A stretch of 64,000 nucleotides of DNA from an uncultured Clostridia bacterium (GTDB lineage: Bacteria > Bacillota > Clostridia > Christensenellales > Borkfalkiaceae), in assembly GCA_944367565.1 (NCBI GenBank), contig CALVWR010000002.1, positions 62,001-126,000 of the forward strand, given 5' to 3'. The notes below the pieces were generated by a model. That model had not been told where the DNA came from, searched no databases, and worked only from the letters and a program-made list of their open reading frames with translations. The first letter of the stretch is position 1. Each line of letters begins with the position of its first letter. Both the position numbers and the translations under genes were made by a program. Of the stretch, positions 17,976 to 45,989 are shown piece by piece.

Positions 17976-18077
17976 GAGCAGACAATCTGCATTAAAGCGG
18001 CAAATTTTCAGTTTGAGCAGACAATCCGCATTAAAGCGTCGGTCAGTCTTCTAGTCCGAGCAGATAGTCCGCAGATA
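17976..18077. repeat. Three-copy degenerate repeat matching the 3' end of the Xre gene
   Basis: GAGCAGACAATCYGCATTAAAGCG occurs at 17976-17999 and 18015-18038. A third related copy (18058-18077) is the antisense of the codons for the ADYLLGL end of the Xre protein. It looks like partial duplication of the gene's 3' end. Confidence 0.6.
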
Positions 18078-18255
18078 TGTCCAACGCGCGGCAAATCAAA
18101 AACAGCGTGTCGATCGAAGGTTCGCTTTTCCCGGATTTATAATCAGAAATACATTGTTTAGATACATTTGCCGCCTTTGCCAAATCGGTTTGTTTGATTT
18201 GCGTGTATTGAAGGCATTCAATAAAACGCTCTTGAAATTTCGTTATTTTTTCCAT
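18043..18255 (-). CDS. Xre-family helix-turn-helix regulator (module 1)
   Basis: 70 residues from ATG 18255. The Cro/CI-type HTH spans residues 17-65 (QTDLAKAANVSKQCISDYKSGKSEPS) and the C-terminal signature is ALDISADYLLGLED. An upstream in-frame extension to 18324 is rejected: a TATAAT box lies 6 nt before this ATG, predicting a leaderless message. Divergent from a DUF975 membrane protein. Three related palindromes in the intergenic region suggest it represses both itself and its neighbour (inference). Confidence 0.85.
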   Translation of the reverse strand: MEKITKFQERFIECLQYTQIKQTDLAKAANVSKQCISDYKSGKSEPSIDTLFLICRALDISADYLLGLED

Positions 18256-18261
18256 ATAAGA

Positions 18262-18339
18262 ATTATAACCAAAAAGTACGCTAATACTTGACAAGTACGT
18301 TAATAACGTATCATAATTATGCAATACGCTATTAGCGTG
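18262..18339. promoter_or_regulatory. Divergent promoters with three operators (module 1)
   Basis: Palindrome TACGTTAATAACGTA (18296-18310) is perfect and lies within the 18-bp spacer of the + promoter (TTGACA 18288-18293, CATAAT 18312-18317). Related copies are at 18325-18339 (TACGCTATTAGCGTG) and, weaker, at 18277-18291, over the -35 region of the minus promoter (-10 TATAAT at 18262-18267). Confidence 0.7.
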
Positions 18340-27001: not shown

Positions 27002-28318
27002 ATGGATCTTTTCGATTATCGTTTACAACAGGAACAGAGGTCGGTGCAGCCGCTTGCGGAGAGGATGCGGGCGCGGACGCTGAAGGAATTTATCGGGCAG
27101 GAGCATATCGTATCGGAGACGAGTCTGCTGTTTCGGGCGATACGGACGGACAGGCTGGGGAGTTGTATTTTCTGGGGGCCTCCGGGGACGGGGAAGACGA
27201 CGCTTGCGAATATTGTGGCGAATTCCACGGGCGGGAACGCGATCAGGCTGAACGCGGTGAATGCCGGCATTGCGGATGTAAAGGCGGCGGTGGAGAAGGC
27301 GCGCAGCGATCTGAAATTGTACGGCAGGCGCACCTATCTTTTACTCGACGAATGTCATCGGTTCAACAAAGCGCAATCCGACTCGTTATTGCCGGCGATA
27401 GAGTGCGGGGATATTCTTTTTATCGGATCCACGACGGAGAACCCGTATGCCGCGATGACGCCGGCGATCGTATCGCGGTGTCGGGTATTTGAATTCCGCG
27501 CGCTCAGCGAGAAAAACATTTACGGGGCGCTGAAGAAAGCGGCGACCGATCGGGAACGGGGGCTCGGGAATATGCTGCTGGAGGTAGACGAGGCGGCTTA
27601 CGCGCATTTTGCGTCCATGGCGGCGGGCGATCTTCGGGTGGCGTATAACGCGCTGGAGCTTGCGGCGCTGACGACGGCGGCGAACGCGGACGGCGTGGTG
27701 CATATCACGTTGCGGGATGCAGAGGAATCCATCCAGCGCAAGGCGCTTTCCTACGACGAAAATCTCTATTACGATCTGCTTTCGGCGTTTTGTAAGAGTC
27801 TCAGGGGGAGCGATTCCGATGCCGCGCTTTACTATATGCAGCGGTTGATCAACGGGGGATGCGATCCGCTGATCATCGCGCGGCGGCTGATCGCCCATGC
27901 CAGCGAAGACGTGGGCATGGCGGATTCCGAAGCGCTCGTCGTGGCGGTTTCCGCGATGACGGCTTACGAACGCATGGGAAAGCCGGAAGGACTGATTCCG
28001 CTCACGCACGCCGTGATCTACGTTTGCGAAGCGCCGAAATCCAATTCGGTGATTCTCGCCATGGAAGGGGCGATGGACGACGCGCTGCATCATAAGGACG
28101 ACGCCGTCCCGCCGCATCTGAAGAATGCCGTTTACGGGAGTGAAGAAGATCAGAAGAAATCGTCGGAATATAAATATGTGCACGATTACGGCGGTTATGT
28201 GAAGCAGCAATATCTGCCGGACGGGCTTGTCGGACGCGTTTATTATCGTCCCAAGGACGTCGGCGAGGAAAAAAAGGTGAAAGAGCGCCGTCGGGAAAAG
28301 GGAATGGAAGATCGATAA
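27002..28318 (+). CDS. rarA: Replication-associated recombination protein A (RarA/MgsA), paralogue 1
   Basis: 438 residues. AAA+ ATPase of the clamp-loader clade: Walker A GPPGTGKTT at 59-67, Walker B LLLDECHRFNKAQ, sensor 1 GSTTENPY, arginine finger region SRC, then the MgsA tetramerisation domain (LLSAFCKSLRGSDSDAALYYMQRL). It acts at stalled forks and gaps. The Walker B variant is DECH, where the second copy at 42433 has DEIH. The predicted mRNA is leaderless. Followed by a very strong hairpin. Confidence 0.93.
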   Translation: MDLFDYRLQQEQRSVQPLAERMRARTLKEFIGQEHIVSETSLLFRAIRTDRLGSCIFWGPPGTGKTTLANIVANSTGGNAIRLNAVNAGIADVKAAVEKARSDLKLYGRRTYLLLDECHRFNKAQSDSLLPAIECGDILFIGSTTENPYAAMTPAIVSRCRVFEFRALSEKNIYGALKKAATDRERGLGNMLLEVDEAAYAHFASMAAGDLRVAYNALELAALTTAANADGVVHITLRDAEESIQRKALSYDENLYYDLLSAFCKSLRGSDSDAALYYMQRLINGGCDPLIIARRLIAHASEDVGMADSEALVVAVSAMTAYERMGKPEGLIPLTHAVIYVCEAPKSNSVILAMEGAMDDALHHKDDAVPPHLKNAVYGSEEDQKKSSEYKYVHDYGGYVKQQYLPDGLVGRVYYRPKDVGEEKKVKERRREKGMEDR

Positions 28319-42432: not shown

Positions 42433-43755
42433 ATGTATCAGCCGACGATGTTTGAATCGGAAAAACTGGAACCGCTTGCGGCGCGCCTGCGTCCCGCGGA
42501 TCTTTCGGAATTCTGCGGACAGGAACATCTTCTGGGCGAAGGCAAAATCTTGCGTCGCCTGATCGAGAACGACGCGATCGGCTCGATGATCTTCTGGGGC
42601 CCCCCGGGTGTGGGGAAGACCACCCTTGCGCGCATCATCGCCAATCGCACGAAGGCGAAGTTTATCGATTTTTCCGCGGTTACGAGCGGAATTAAAGAGA
42701 TCCGTCAGGTGATGGACGACGCGGAAAAGAACCGTCGGTTCGGGGAAAAAACCATCCTTTTCGTCGACGAAATTCACCGTTTCAACAAGGCGCAGCAGGA
42801 CGCGTTTCTTCCTTACGTGGAAAAGGGGAGCATCGTGCTGATCGGCGCAACGACGGAAAATCCTTCTTTTGAAGTCAACGGGGCGTTGCTGTCGCGGTGC
42901 AAGGTGTTCGTTCTGCACGCACTCGAGGAAAAGGATCTGGTAAAACTTCTCCGCCGCGCGCTGGAAGACAAACGCGGATTCGGCGGGGAAACGGTACGCA
43001 TCGAGGACGATCTCGTCCGTGCGATCGCCAACTTTGCCAACGGCGATGCCCGCGCCGCGCTGTCCGCATTGGAAATGGCGGTGCTCAACGGCGAACGGAC
43101 GGGGGACGTGATCACCGTAACGCAGGAAATCGTTGCTCAGTGCATTTCCAAAAAATCCCTGCTTTACGACAAAAACGGAGAAGAACATTATAATCTGATC
43201 TCGGCGTTGCATAAATCCATGCGTAATTCCGATCCCGACGCCGCGGTCTACTGGCTGGCGCGGATGCTGGAAGCGGGGGAAGATCCGCTGTACGTCGCGC
43301 GGCGGGTGGTGCGGTTTGCCTCAGAGGATGTGGGGTTGGCGGATCCCCGCGCGCTGGAAACGGCGGTGGCGGCGTATCAGGCGTGCCACTTCATCGGAAT
43401 GCCGGAATGTACGGTGCATCTGACGCAGGCAGTCGTATATCTTTCGCTTGCACCGAAATCCAACGCCCTGTACGTGGCGTACTCCATGGCGCGGAAAGAC
43501 GCGCTCACGTCCCTCGCGGAACCGGTGCCCGAAGTGATCCGCAACGCGCCGACGGCGCTCATGAAGGAACTCGGCTACGGCGCGGGCTATCAGTACGCGC
43601 ACGACGCGGAGGACAAACTCACGAATATGCAGTGTCTGCCCGATTCCCTTCTGGGCAGGGAATATTACCGCCCCACGGAAGAGGGGACGGAAGCGAAATT
43701 CGCTTCGCGCCTGAAAGAGATCAAGGCGTGGAAAAAAGAACACGAAAAGGACTGA
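42433..43755 (+). CDS. rarA: Replication-associated recombination protein A (RarA/MgsA), paralogue 2
   Basis: 440 residues. Walker A GPPGVGKTT at 56-64, Walker B LFVDEIHRFNKAQQ, sensor GATTENPSFEVNGALLSRC, C-terminal MgsA domain (LISALHKSMRNSDPDAAVYWLARMLEAGEDPLY). It is closer to textbook RarA than the copy at 27002. Start with GGGAGAAG upstream, 45 nt after the trpB2-like gene, so probably read through from the T-box operon. Having two full RarA genes within 16 kb is unusual. Confidence 0.93.
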   Translation: MYQPTMFESEKLEPLAARLRPADLSEFCGQEHLLGEGKILRRLIENDAIGSMIFWGPPGVGKTTLARIIANRTKAKFIDFSAVTSGIKEIRQVMDDAEKNRRFGEKTILFVDEIHRFNKAQQDAFLPYVEKGSIVLIGATTENPSFEVNGALLSRCKVFVLHALEEKDLVKLLRRALEDKRGFGGETVRIEDDLVRAIANFANGDARAALSALEMAVLNGERTGDVITVTQEIVAQCISKKSLLYDKNGEEHYNLISALHKSMRNSDPDAAVYWLARMLEAGEDPLYVARRVVRFASEDVGLADPRALETAVAAYQACHFIGMPECTVHLTQAVVYLSLAPKSNALYVAYSMARKDALTSLAEPVPEVIRNAPTALMKELGYGAGYQYAHDAEDKLTNMQCLPDSLLGREYYRPTEEGTEAKFASRLKEIKAWKKEHEKD

Positions 43756-43976: not shown

Positions 43977-44151
43977 AAAATCGCGCTCCGCGACAAAAGC
44001 GGAGCGCGATGCAAAGGCATTTGTACCGCAAAGAAGTGAAATTAAAGCGATACACGCTGCAAATTGTTTTATCCGCAAGAAGTGAGGCAGAAGCGATACG
44101 AAGTTCACGGAAACTGCAAAACACGAAACCTCGCCGCGGGGGCGTTTTACT

Positions 44152-44264
44152 TTATTTTATCGAGTTGAGATATTTTTTGCGGATAGAGGTATACACTTCG
44201 GGGTCGATCGGTTCGTTTGCGATGCTCGAAGAGGGGAGCAGTTGTTCGCCCGCAGGTAAAATTT
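44152..44264 (-). pseudogene. Remnant 3' end of an unidentified gene
   Basis: In the frame shifted relative to the adjacent HTH gene, a protein-like tail ends in IDPEVYTSIRKKYLNSIK and a stop. It has no start and may be the old C-terminus of a frameshifted neighbour. Confidence 0.25.
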
Positions 44265-44266
44265 TT

Positions 44267-44503
44267 CTATTCCAGATCGGAATTCCGAAAAACGTCGGTA
44301 CTGAAAAATTCCGCAAGAGTCATTCCGAATCCGTCGCACAGCATTTTTATCGTGGCAACACCGGGATTAACGCTCTTTCCGTATAAAATATTTTTTATCG
44401 TTGAGGGAGATACTCCGGATTCAATGGATAAACGATGAATGGATAGGTTGCGTTGTTCCAACAGTTGGAATAACCGTTCTTTTACTGCCTGATAAGTATT
44501 CAT
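44267..44503 (-). CDS. Xre/Cro-type HTH regulator of the AT-rich island
   Basis: 78 residues from ATG 44503 (AAAGG upstream). HTH: LEQRNLSIHRLSIESGVSPSTIKNILYGKSVNPGVATIKMLCDGFGMTLAEFF, the small single-domain type common in Clostridia. Divergent from the two genes below, with AT-rich palindromic sequence (GACTATATATGATACTATAT, 44549-44568) between them. Probably a local repressor (inference). Confidence 0.85.
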   Translation of the reverse strand: MNTYQAVKERLFQLLEQRNLSIHRLSIESGVSPSTIKNILYGKSVNPGVATIKMLCDGFGMTLAEFFSTDVFRNSDLE

Positions 44504-44618
44504 TTTATAACCTTTTTCTTTTATGATACACAATTTTATTGACGTTTATGGACTATATATGATACTATATGTCTATATATAGCCTATAATGAATAGAATT
44601 GCATAAAGGAAAAAGCAA

Positions 44619-45083
44619 ATGAATTATTTTTTGAAAATTATCGGAGATACGAAAATGCGCGCAGAAGATAATTTGATTAAAGAATTTGAAACTGCGGGAG
44701 CTGAATTCTGGAAAAAAGAAAGCAGAATTATTTTAGGTAAAGCTGCAGTGGGGCGCGTGAAAAAGGGCGATATTCTGATACAATACGTGCCTAAGGGGGC
44801 GAAAGATAAAAAATGGGCAGGGCGCGTTGTCGGGTGTTATGAGGTGATCTCAATCGAAAAGCCGACGGACTATAAAACATATTTCGGACATTGGGTTGCG
44901 GATTGCGCGGCGGAAACAATGTTTGAAGAGTTTTCTCGTCAATCGAAGGATAGAACGATTTTACGTATCGATCAACTTTCCGTAAAATTGAACGGGCAGA
45001 TCCAAAGCGGTTTACAAAACCTGTCGCAGGAAGAAGGGCAGCGGTGTGTTCAGAAAATCAAACAAAAGGAATTTGAATTATGA
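44619..45083 (+). CDS. Hypothetical protein, possibly EVE/PUA-like
   Basis: 154 residues, soluble, AT-rich compared with neighbours. The stretch SRIILGKAAVGRVKKGDILIQYVPKGAKDKKWAGRVVGCYEVISIEKP resembles the barrel of EVE/PUA-type domains, which bind modified bases in RNA or DNA and occur in restriction-linked defence genes; the match is by eye only. RBS AAAGGAAAAAG. Its stop overlaps the start of the SHOCT protein (ATGA), so the two are co-translated. Confidence 0.5.
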   Translation: MNYFLKIIGDTKMRAEDNLIKEFETAGAEFWKKESRIILGKAAVGRVKKGDILIQYVPKGAKDKKWAGRVVGCYEVISIEKPTDYKTYFGHWVADCAAETMFEEFSRQSKDRTILRIDQLSVKLNGQIQSGLQNLSQEEGQRCVQKIKQKEFEL

Positions 45084-45907
45084 AAATCGGAAAAAATACC
45101 ATTGAAAACAGAGAATTTTACGATAATCATACAAACGCAAAAAGAAAAAAATGGAAAAAACTTTTGCTCCCGTATAGGTGTGTAATGATTTGTGCTTCTT
45201 TATCTTTATATGTAAGTGCTGTTTGTTTAATTAAAGACTATTTTAATTGGACGAATATTGTTTTGCTTGCAGTAGAAACGATTCTTTTTTTCATTACAGA
45301 GAAATTTGCAAAAAAACAATGGCATATTTATCCTACGGATGCCGTTATAGAAAATTTGCCTCATGAAGAAAGGCAAACGTATATTTATAAAAATACCGTA
45401 CCGCTTTATTTTGGCGTGATCGTGATTGTTTTGTTAGTGCAAATGTTGCTTTCGAGCATAGGGTTGTTCTCGATTTTATTTTCGGCAAGCGTATTTGCAA
45501 CAAACTTTTGGGTAAAGTTACTGTTGCTTGCAATAGCGGTTCTGTCTGTTTGGGCAACGGTTAACAGCGTAAGATTGTTGAATATTATTATAAAATGGAT
45601 TAAGTTTTATCGCTGGACGTGGGACGAGTTGCATTTATCCCTTGCAGAACGGAAAGAAATCTACAATGAGAGAAAAGAAGCATATGCACAGTGGAAACGC
45701 GAACGGCGAAAAAAGAGATTCGATTCTCTGAAAGAAGAATGGCAAGAGGAAATGGACGGATTAAAGAAAAAGAAACAAGATCAATCGCAAAAGAAAAAAG
45801 AGGAAGATTTAAAATGCAAACTGGATAACTTGAAAAAGTTATATGAAAACGGCGTGATCGATGAAGACGAGTATCGTCAAATGAGAAAAAAAGTTTTGGG
45901 GATATGA
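45080..45907 (+). CDS. Membrane protein with C-terminal coiled coil and SHOCT domain
   Basis: 275 residues. Four hydrophobic segments near 30-50, 55-72, 105-135 and 142-165. Then a long charged helix rich in K/E (SLKEEWQEEMDGLKKKKQ) and a terminal SHOCT motif (LKKLYENGVIDEDEYRQMRKKVLG). SHOCT tails mediate oligomerisation. Codon use is AT-rich and A-ending, unlike flanking genes, suggesting horizontal acquisition with its two neighbours. Function unknown. Confidence 0.7.
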   Translation: MKIGKNTIENREFYDNHTNAKRKKWKKLLLPYRCVMICASLSLYVSAVCLIKDYFNWTNIVLLAVETILFFITEKFAKKQWHIYPTDAVIENLPHEERQTYIYKNTVPLYFGVIVIVLLVQMLLSSIGLFSILFSASVFATNFWVKLLLLAIAVLSVWATVNSVRLLNIIIKWIKFYRWTWDELHLSLAERKEIYNERKEAYAQWKRERRKKRFDSLKEEWQEEMDGLKKKKQDQSQKKKEEDLKCKLDNLKKLYENGVIDEDEYRQMRKKVLGI

Positions 45908-45913
45908 AAAAAA

Positions 45914-45944
45914 CGCCCCCGCGCGGCATCGCCGCGCGGGGGCG
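45914..45944 (+). terminator. GC-rich hairpin ending the island operon
   Basis: 14-bp perfect stem (45914-45927 with 45931-45944), followed by a T-rich stretch; the preceding A-run also gives a T-run on the minus strand. Confidence 0.8.
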
Positions 45945-45989
45945 CTGTTTGTTTTACGGTGCCGCCCTGCGGGCGGAAAATCCGGTTTT

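Follow-up and report, generated by a model that had tools for sequence, protein, structure and literature searches.

An AT-rich cassette coupling a predicted EVE/YTH-like reader to a SHOCT membrane protein behind a shared HTH-operator unit in Clostridia

Composition and boundaries of the cassette

An AT-rich cassette of three genes occupies positions 44254-45907 of the window (the whole 64-kb stretch of DNA that was analysed), as delimited by its composition and by its junctions relative to contig L025 of the sister genome G298. No other 1.65 kb of the window is as rich in AT: its GC content is 0.363, against an average of 0.520 (sd 0.034) for all segments of 1654 bases in the 64 kb, the lowest value clear of the island being 0.437, and GC3 is 0.36-0.42 in the three cassette genes vs 0.57-0.80 in eight neighbours. 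The sharp shift in base composition described in the first-pass annotation is thus borne out. On the minus strand lies a 78-aa regulator of the XRE/HTH_26 type (44267-44503; Pfam HTH_26 1.2e-8, HTH_3 2.7e-7), facing away from two plus-strand genes. The first of these encodes a 154-aa EVE/YTH-like protein, predicted from an AlphaFold2 model, Foldseek, VIA and NF002008 to be a reader of modified nucleic acids (44619-45083), and the second a 275-aa membrane protein with a SHOCT domain (45080-45907; Pfam SHOCT, hydropathy and charge, alignment of homologs). Upstream of the regulator is an inverted-repeat operator, GGACTATATATGATACTATATGTCTATATATAGCC (44550-44584), recognised by the recurrence of its core ATCATATATAG in related HTH loci, and overlapping it is a sigma-70-like promoter, TTGACG-N18-TACTAT (44539-44568, plus strand), for the divergent two-gene operon. 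The stop and start codons of the reader and membrane genes share an ATGA (45080-45083, plus strand), consistent with translational coupling, and the same 4-nt overlap occurs in L041, L044 and L055 (see below), so that both the divergent regulator and the coupled pair hold as first described.

Contig L025 of G298 carries the same neighbours as the window, a PALP enzyme (95% aa identity) and a lipoprotein (91%), and between them a 440-aa protein and a further gene, which we take to be an oxidoreductase and an AraC-type regulator, without the cassette and without the RarA copy of the window. Positions 44253-44155 (minus strand) correspond to residues 408-440 of the G298 oxidoreductase (69.7%, E 5.7e-8); the gene remnant suspected at the edge of the island is real and consists of the last 33 codons of that gene. 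Of the island as first delimited (44152-45907), only the part from about 44254 to 45907 was acquired, whereas the remnant (44152-44253, minus strand) is host sequence, also in G298, and lies outside the cassette. On the left, homology to G298 stops at 44253; on the right it starts again with the hairpin directly after the stop codon at 45907, from which it follows that the cassette replaced most of the host oxidoreductase gene, cleanly at both ends. The left hairpin (about 44129-44147) and the right one (45912-45946), the latter a strong, bidirectional, terminator-like structure, are host sequence and present in G298.

On either side of the island lies one arm of a perfect inverted repeat of 14 nt (44135-44148 and 45910-45923), whose 13-nt core has only four copies in the genome, the other two inside genes. 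We rejected an interpretation as transposon terminal inverted repeats because both ends are host terminators found in G298; being part of these terminators, the repeat is no signature of an element. The spot is variable within the genus, since the place taken in the window by RarA and the cassette is occupied in G298 by the oxidoreductase and AraC-type pair (L025:7422-9284). The RarA gene at 42433-43755 is the second RarA/MgsA-type AAA ATPase gene of the window (43% to the copy at 27002-28318); it is absent from the G298 site and has a 79% relative in G297, in another neighbourhood, for which reason G297 was dropped as an empty-site comparison.

The reader and the membrane protein

A single-sequence fold of the 154-aa reader was discarded (pLDDT 34). 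Among five AlphaFold2 models built on the alignment of four homologs, one was confident (pLDDT 74.6, pTM 0.75; the others 28-46). The 20 Foldseek matches of this model at E <= 0.001 were all EVE or YTH structures matched over the whole length, with PH1033 first (1.1e-5) and MJECL36 next (2.3e-5); a DrmAB (DISARM) chain was also listed, at 1.2e-3. We take 1wmm, 2p5d and 2gbs to be EVE structures, and PH1033 is presumably an EVE protein. VIA alignment gave Z scores of 10.9 for PH1033 (1wmm) and 10.3 for MJECL36 (2p5d) and 11.3 for the YTH domain of Mmi1, each over 120-123 residues, and the reader is alike in fold to the YTH domains of Mmi1, YTHDF2 and YTHDC1 generally (Z 9.5-11.3). It is similar in size to, and matches in fold over the full length, the stand-alone EVE proteins (PH1033, MJECL36, NF002008/PRK00809), but its identity to the PH1033/MJECL36 type is 17-20% and it has no Pfam EVE match. 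NF002008, which we take to be an EVE-like family, matches three of the four reader homologs (best 3.3e-5), with 23.6 bits against a cut-off of 139 bits. A Pfam scan of the four homologs gave no match beyond noise and no EVE (PF01878) match; hhalign against seven EVE proteins yielded a probability of 15% for the reader alone (best of 60 shuffles 9.6%) and of 0.6% for the four-reader alignment, so that the profile comparison was at best not clearly above shuffles and lent the link no support, and PDB sequence searches with either query returned nothing credible. In BFVD the model had five matches at E <= 0.001, most of them to viral proteins without a name. W31 and other aromatic residues are invariant in all four homologs. 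The protein likely has an EVE/YTH fold over its whole length, as judged from one confident model of five, and structure prediction agrees with the EVE/PUA-like assignment proposed for the middle gene. Such a reader could serve host RNA.

The membrane protein has about 4-5 hydrophobic segments by hydropathy, and after the last of them an RWTW(E/D) motif, of which RWTW is invariant in the alignment of homologs. Its tail of 98 aa is basic (net charge +5 to +11, pI 9.2-10.0 in four cassettes). The C-terminal SHOCT domain covers residues 247-273 of 275 (34.0 bits vs a Pfam cut-off of 27), in keeping with the original description of a SHOCT membrane protein: several transmembrane segments followed by a C-terminal SHOCT helix pair. 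No Pfam family matched the RWTW(E/D) membrane region, PDB sequence searches with the protein gave nothing credible, and weak matches of it were seen in 4 of 61 relatives. In its C-terminal SHOCT and its membrane segments it resembles other SHOCT-domain membrane proteins (PF09851), but the scanned flanking proteins included neither PspA nor PspC nor Toastrack, in contrast to the setting of SHOCT-like partners in PSP systems. According to the accessible part of the paper, the authors of the SHOCT domain suggested protein or nucleic-acid binding, and their own test did not support oligomerisation (PMC3581485).

Relatives, divergence and the shared regulatory unit

Three of 25 related HTH loci (L041, L044 (Candidatus Coproplasma avistercoris) and L055) have the cassette complete, in the same gene order and with the 4-nt overlap, and since order, divergence and overlap are repeated in three other genomes the trio is more than a chance association. 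A profile search with the four readers found the cassette in 4 of 398 family genomes, namely that of the window and three that belong to a single other genus and are identical in contig and coordinates to L041, L044 and L055. None of the other four members of the window's genus had it (five genus genomes searched). With the reader as sole query there was no match in the genomic contigs or in the collections of phage, plasmid and viral sequences, and in the class sample it found 1 of 391 genomes, the window itself; weak matches in the order and phylum samples (L002 and L003 of 297 genomes, L016-L018 of 398) lay inside unrelated proteins and were taken as chance. Several hosts share the AT-richness of the cassette. 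The three genes might be recently acquired neighbours that decay without a joint function, as the remnant at the edge and the restriction of the cassette to one of the five genus genomes would allow, but we regard this as very improbable, given that the same trio recurs in another genus with all frames open in its three copies.

Among the three cassettes of the other genus the HTH proteins are 75-78% identical, the readers 46-65% and the membrane proteins 40-48%, against 85-91% for housekeeping proteins, and between the window and these three the values are 70-75% for HTH, 43-44% for the reader and 29-33% for the membrane protein, with 66% for PEPCK. Because the divergence within the genus is nearly as deep as that between genera, repeated exchange or diversifying change fits better than plain descent. 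In the other genus the cassette has an aminotransferase gene on one side and a hypothetical gene on the other, with PEPCK following in the two longer contigs. The hypothetical gene (27-40%) and PEPCK (65-66%) also lie on the right of the cassette in the window, where the cassette is turned round relative to these two genes when compared with the other genus; within that genus, the side of an 86-aa gene on which the cassette sits varies. Both rearrangements, together with the foreign composition, would suit superinfection exclusion or another function carried by a mobile element or prophage. Against this, no integrase, transposase or terminal repeat was seen at the cassette (the 14-nt repeat lies in host terminators that G298 shares), phage and plasmid records had no match to the window's reader or membrane protein, and scans of viral contigs with both found no relative beyond one SHOCT-only match; we consider such an origin of the function quite improbable.

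The cassette regulator consists of the HTH domain only, with no sensor domain by Pfam. Searching genomic contigs with it yielded the 25 related loci, the HTHs of the cassettes being 70-78% identical. The inverted repeat TGGGCTATATATGATACAAT...CTATATATAGCCCA recurs upstream of the HTH gene. The 25 loci, 176,070 bases in total, contain its core ATCATATATAG 20 times, in every case <=150 bp upstream of HTH, and the window has a single copy (at 44553). A promoter pattern, TTGAC(A/G)-N17/18-TA(C/T)NAT, overlaps the operator in 19 of 26 HTH upstream regions (window included) compared with 12 among 2390 control pieces; the strict pattern is missed at L041 and L044 because both carry TTGACT. Throughout L041-L065 a conserved HTH with its operator-promoter unit, about 50-80 bp upstream of HTH, stands before varied divergent genes, and the operator is kept irrespective of the identity of the divergent gene. 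At L055/L071 an extra XRE-like gene follows directly after HTH (L071:9752-9997; 36% to the HTH at 18043-18324 of the window).

The first divergent gene of the core-bearing loci has predicted transmembrane or signal segments in 13 of 20 cases (16 of 20 including the three EVE-SHOCT operons), a count that rests on simple hydropathy and a choice of the longest ORF and in which the independent cases are fewer than counted because L059-L061 are near-copies. At L042, a different SHOCT membrane protein is divergent from HTH, without an EVE gene. Envelope proteins, with no reader alongside, are what this type of HTH and operator controls at the majority of the 25 loci; the regulator therefore does not imply defence. 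The HTH with its operator-promoter unit is possibly, in Clostridia, a regulatory cassette with exchangeable cargo, mostly envelope proteins.

The strongest rival to a role in conflict follows from this, since regulators of this type also control many envelope genes: the HTH would be a reused envelope-gene repressor and the EVE-like partner would bind host RNA or DNA (e.g., modified tRNA) and tether or tune the membrane protein under membrane stress. Such an envelope function agrees with the divergent-gene counts, with the housekeeping neighbours of all four cassettes, and with the link between SHOCT-like domains and membrane-stress complexes reported in the part of PMC11237479 that was accessible. 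It agrees less well with the presence of the cassette in only 4 of 398 family genomes, with a reader and a membrane protein that diverge far faster than their neighbours, and with the loss of a host gene to the cassette in the lineage of the window, and we hold it possible but on balance unlikely.

One further locus, L050, keeps the HTH, the operator and the RWTW membrane protein and has no EVE gene. Its RWTW-family membrane protein (L050:2621-3886) has a C-terminal SRA-like region, with a weak match to the SRA profile (E 0.0021, 18.4 bits vs a cut-off of 30.2) that spans profile positions 16-143 of 145. SRA is a modified-base-reader profile. This hints that the EVE gene has given way there to a weakly matching SRA-like fusion, which favours the reader-effector reading given below. 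The SRA-like region had no plasmid tblastn match, no PADLOC match and no credible PDB sequence match. The next gene (1216-2490) resembles a P-loop ATPase.

Known systems and a possible role at the membrane

Bacterial PUA/EVE modified-base readers are known mainly as guides for nucleases and predicted toxins. The first-pass annotation had likened the layout of the locus to small defence or toxin systems, but such a role is not supported by the following results: the four cassettes all lie among housekeeping genes, a setting that the annotation itself had named as speaking against the idea, and PADLOC-DB 2.0.0 has no family for the window's reader and membrane protein. PADLOC likewise gave nothing for the scanned homologs, bar a chance-level Cas1b match (0.02) on L050, only general XRE matches for the window's HTH (best capH 3.7e-4), and none for ten flanking window proteins apart from AAA cross-hits of RarA. 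There is no nuclease or McrB-type GTPase in the cassette, and among the flanking genes Pfam and PADLOC identified only the RarA-type AAA ATPase.

Operons in which EVE proteins take part in predicted toxin-antitoxin or type IV restriction systems are described in the accessible part of PMC7641849. The cassette is similar in its EVE-type reader, its small operon and its nearby HTH, but it has no PIN, GNAT, ASCH, McrB or nuclease partner and instead a coupled membrane protein, a partner of which that part of the article makes no mention for EVE. The pair could form a self-maintaining toxin-antitoxin cassette, with the membrane protein as toxin and the EVE-like protein or the HTH as antitoxin, and its compact, coupled, repressed, patchy and AT-rich character would fit, as would the precedent of these EVE operons. 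Yet no toxin-antitoxin family of Pfam, NCBIfam or PADLOC was matched, bar weak general HTH matches (HigA E 0.083), and both L050, with the same type of membrane gene, and L042, with another SHOCT membrane gene, are without the EVE gene, so that we think this explanation decidedly unlikely. YTH-like readers also occur in the predicted defence systems of the CoCoNuT type IV restriction group (PMC11090510, in its accessible part); these differ from the cassette locus, which has no McrB GTPase, McrC or nuclease.

Two other loci have stand-alone EVE-type proteins in surroundings like those of known restriction contexts, one adjoining an HsdS-like gene (L030:1483-3118), the other an M48/SprT-like peptidase and a second EVE-type protein (L040:472-3003); the gene names at both are our assumption from the sequence. 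Our literature searches found no report of the present cassette or of an EVE reader coupled to a SHOCT membrane protein, and the only papers found that join EVE domains, transmembrane proteins and abortive infection were two versions of the CoCoNuT work. EVE readers in small operons are already known, and the coupling to a SHOCT membrane protein is unreported in the literature searched.

Given the anatomy, recurrence, shared operator, fast divergence and host-gene replacement described above, we tentatively prefer to see in the cassette a rare, exchangeable, HTH-repressed two-gene operon in which an EVE/YTH reader may trigger a membrane effector in a manner resembling abortive infection. A role in conflict rather than in housekeeping is favoured by the rarity, patchiness, exchange and AT-richness of the cassette and by the fast divergence of reader and membrane protein, and fast-evolving EVE domains are typically found in defence contexts (PMC7641849, accessible part). 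The HTH is predicted to sit on the inverted repeat over the promoter and to keep the operon low. The reader would bind a modified base, whether in the DNA or RNA of a phage or in host RNA that infection has changed, and its state might be passed to the coupled membrane protein through the basic, coiled, SHOCT-bearing cytoplasmic tail, whereupon the membrane protein would assemble or open and stop growth. The sensor of such an abortive-infection-like module would be a modified-base reader and its output the membrane, not a nuclease. The more general proposal, of a family of defence modules behind a swappable HTH-operator unit in which a modified-base reader (EVE/YTH in trans, SRA-like fused in cis) controls a membrane-disrupting protein and not a nuclease, and which would amount to modification-dependent abortive infection at the membrane, we regard as doubtful.

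If the reader does signal to the membrane protein, the sensing of modified nucleic acids would be linked with abortive infection directed at the membrane; the existence of four natural variants and of the SRA-like fusion makes such signalling directly testable. Even if the cassette is not a defence system, an ATGA-coupled reader and membrane protein would connect nucleic-acid modification with the envelope in an unusual way, and the shared HTH-operator unit may offer a route to further cargo outside defence islands.
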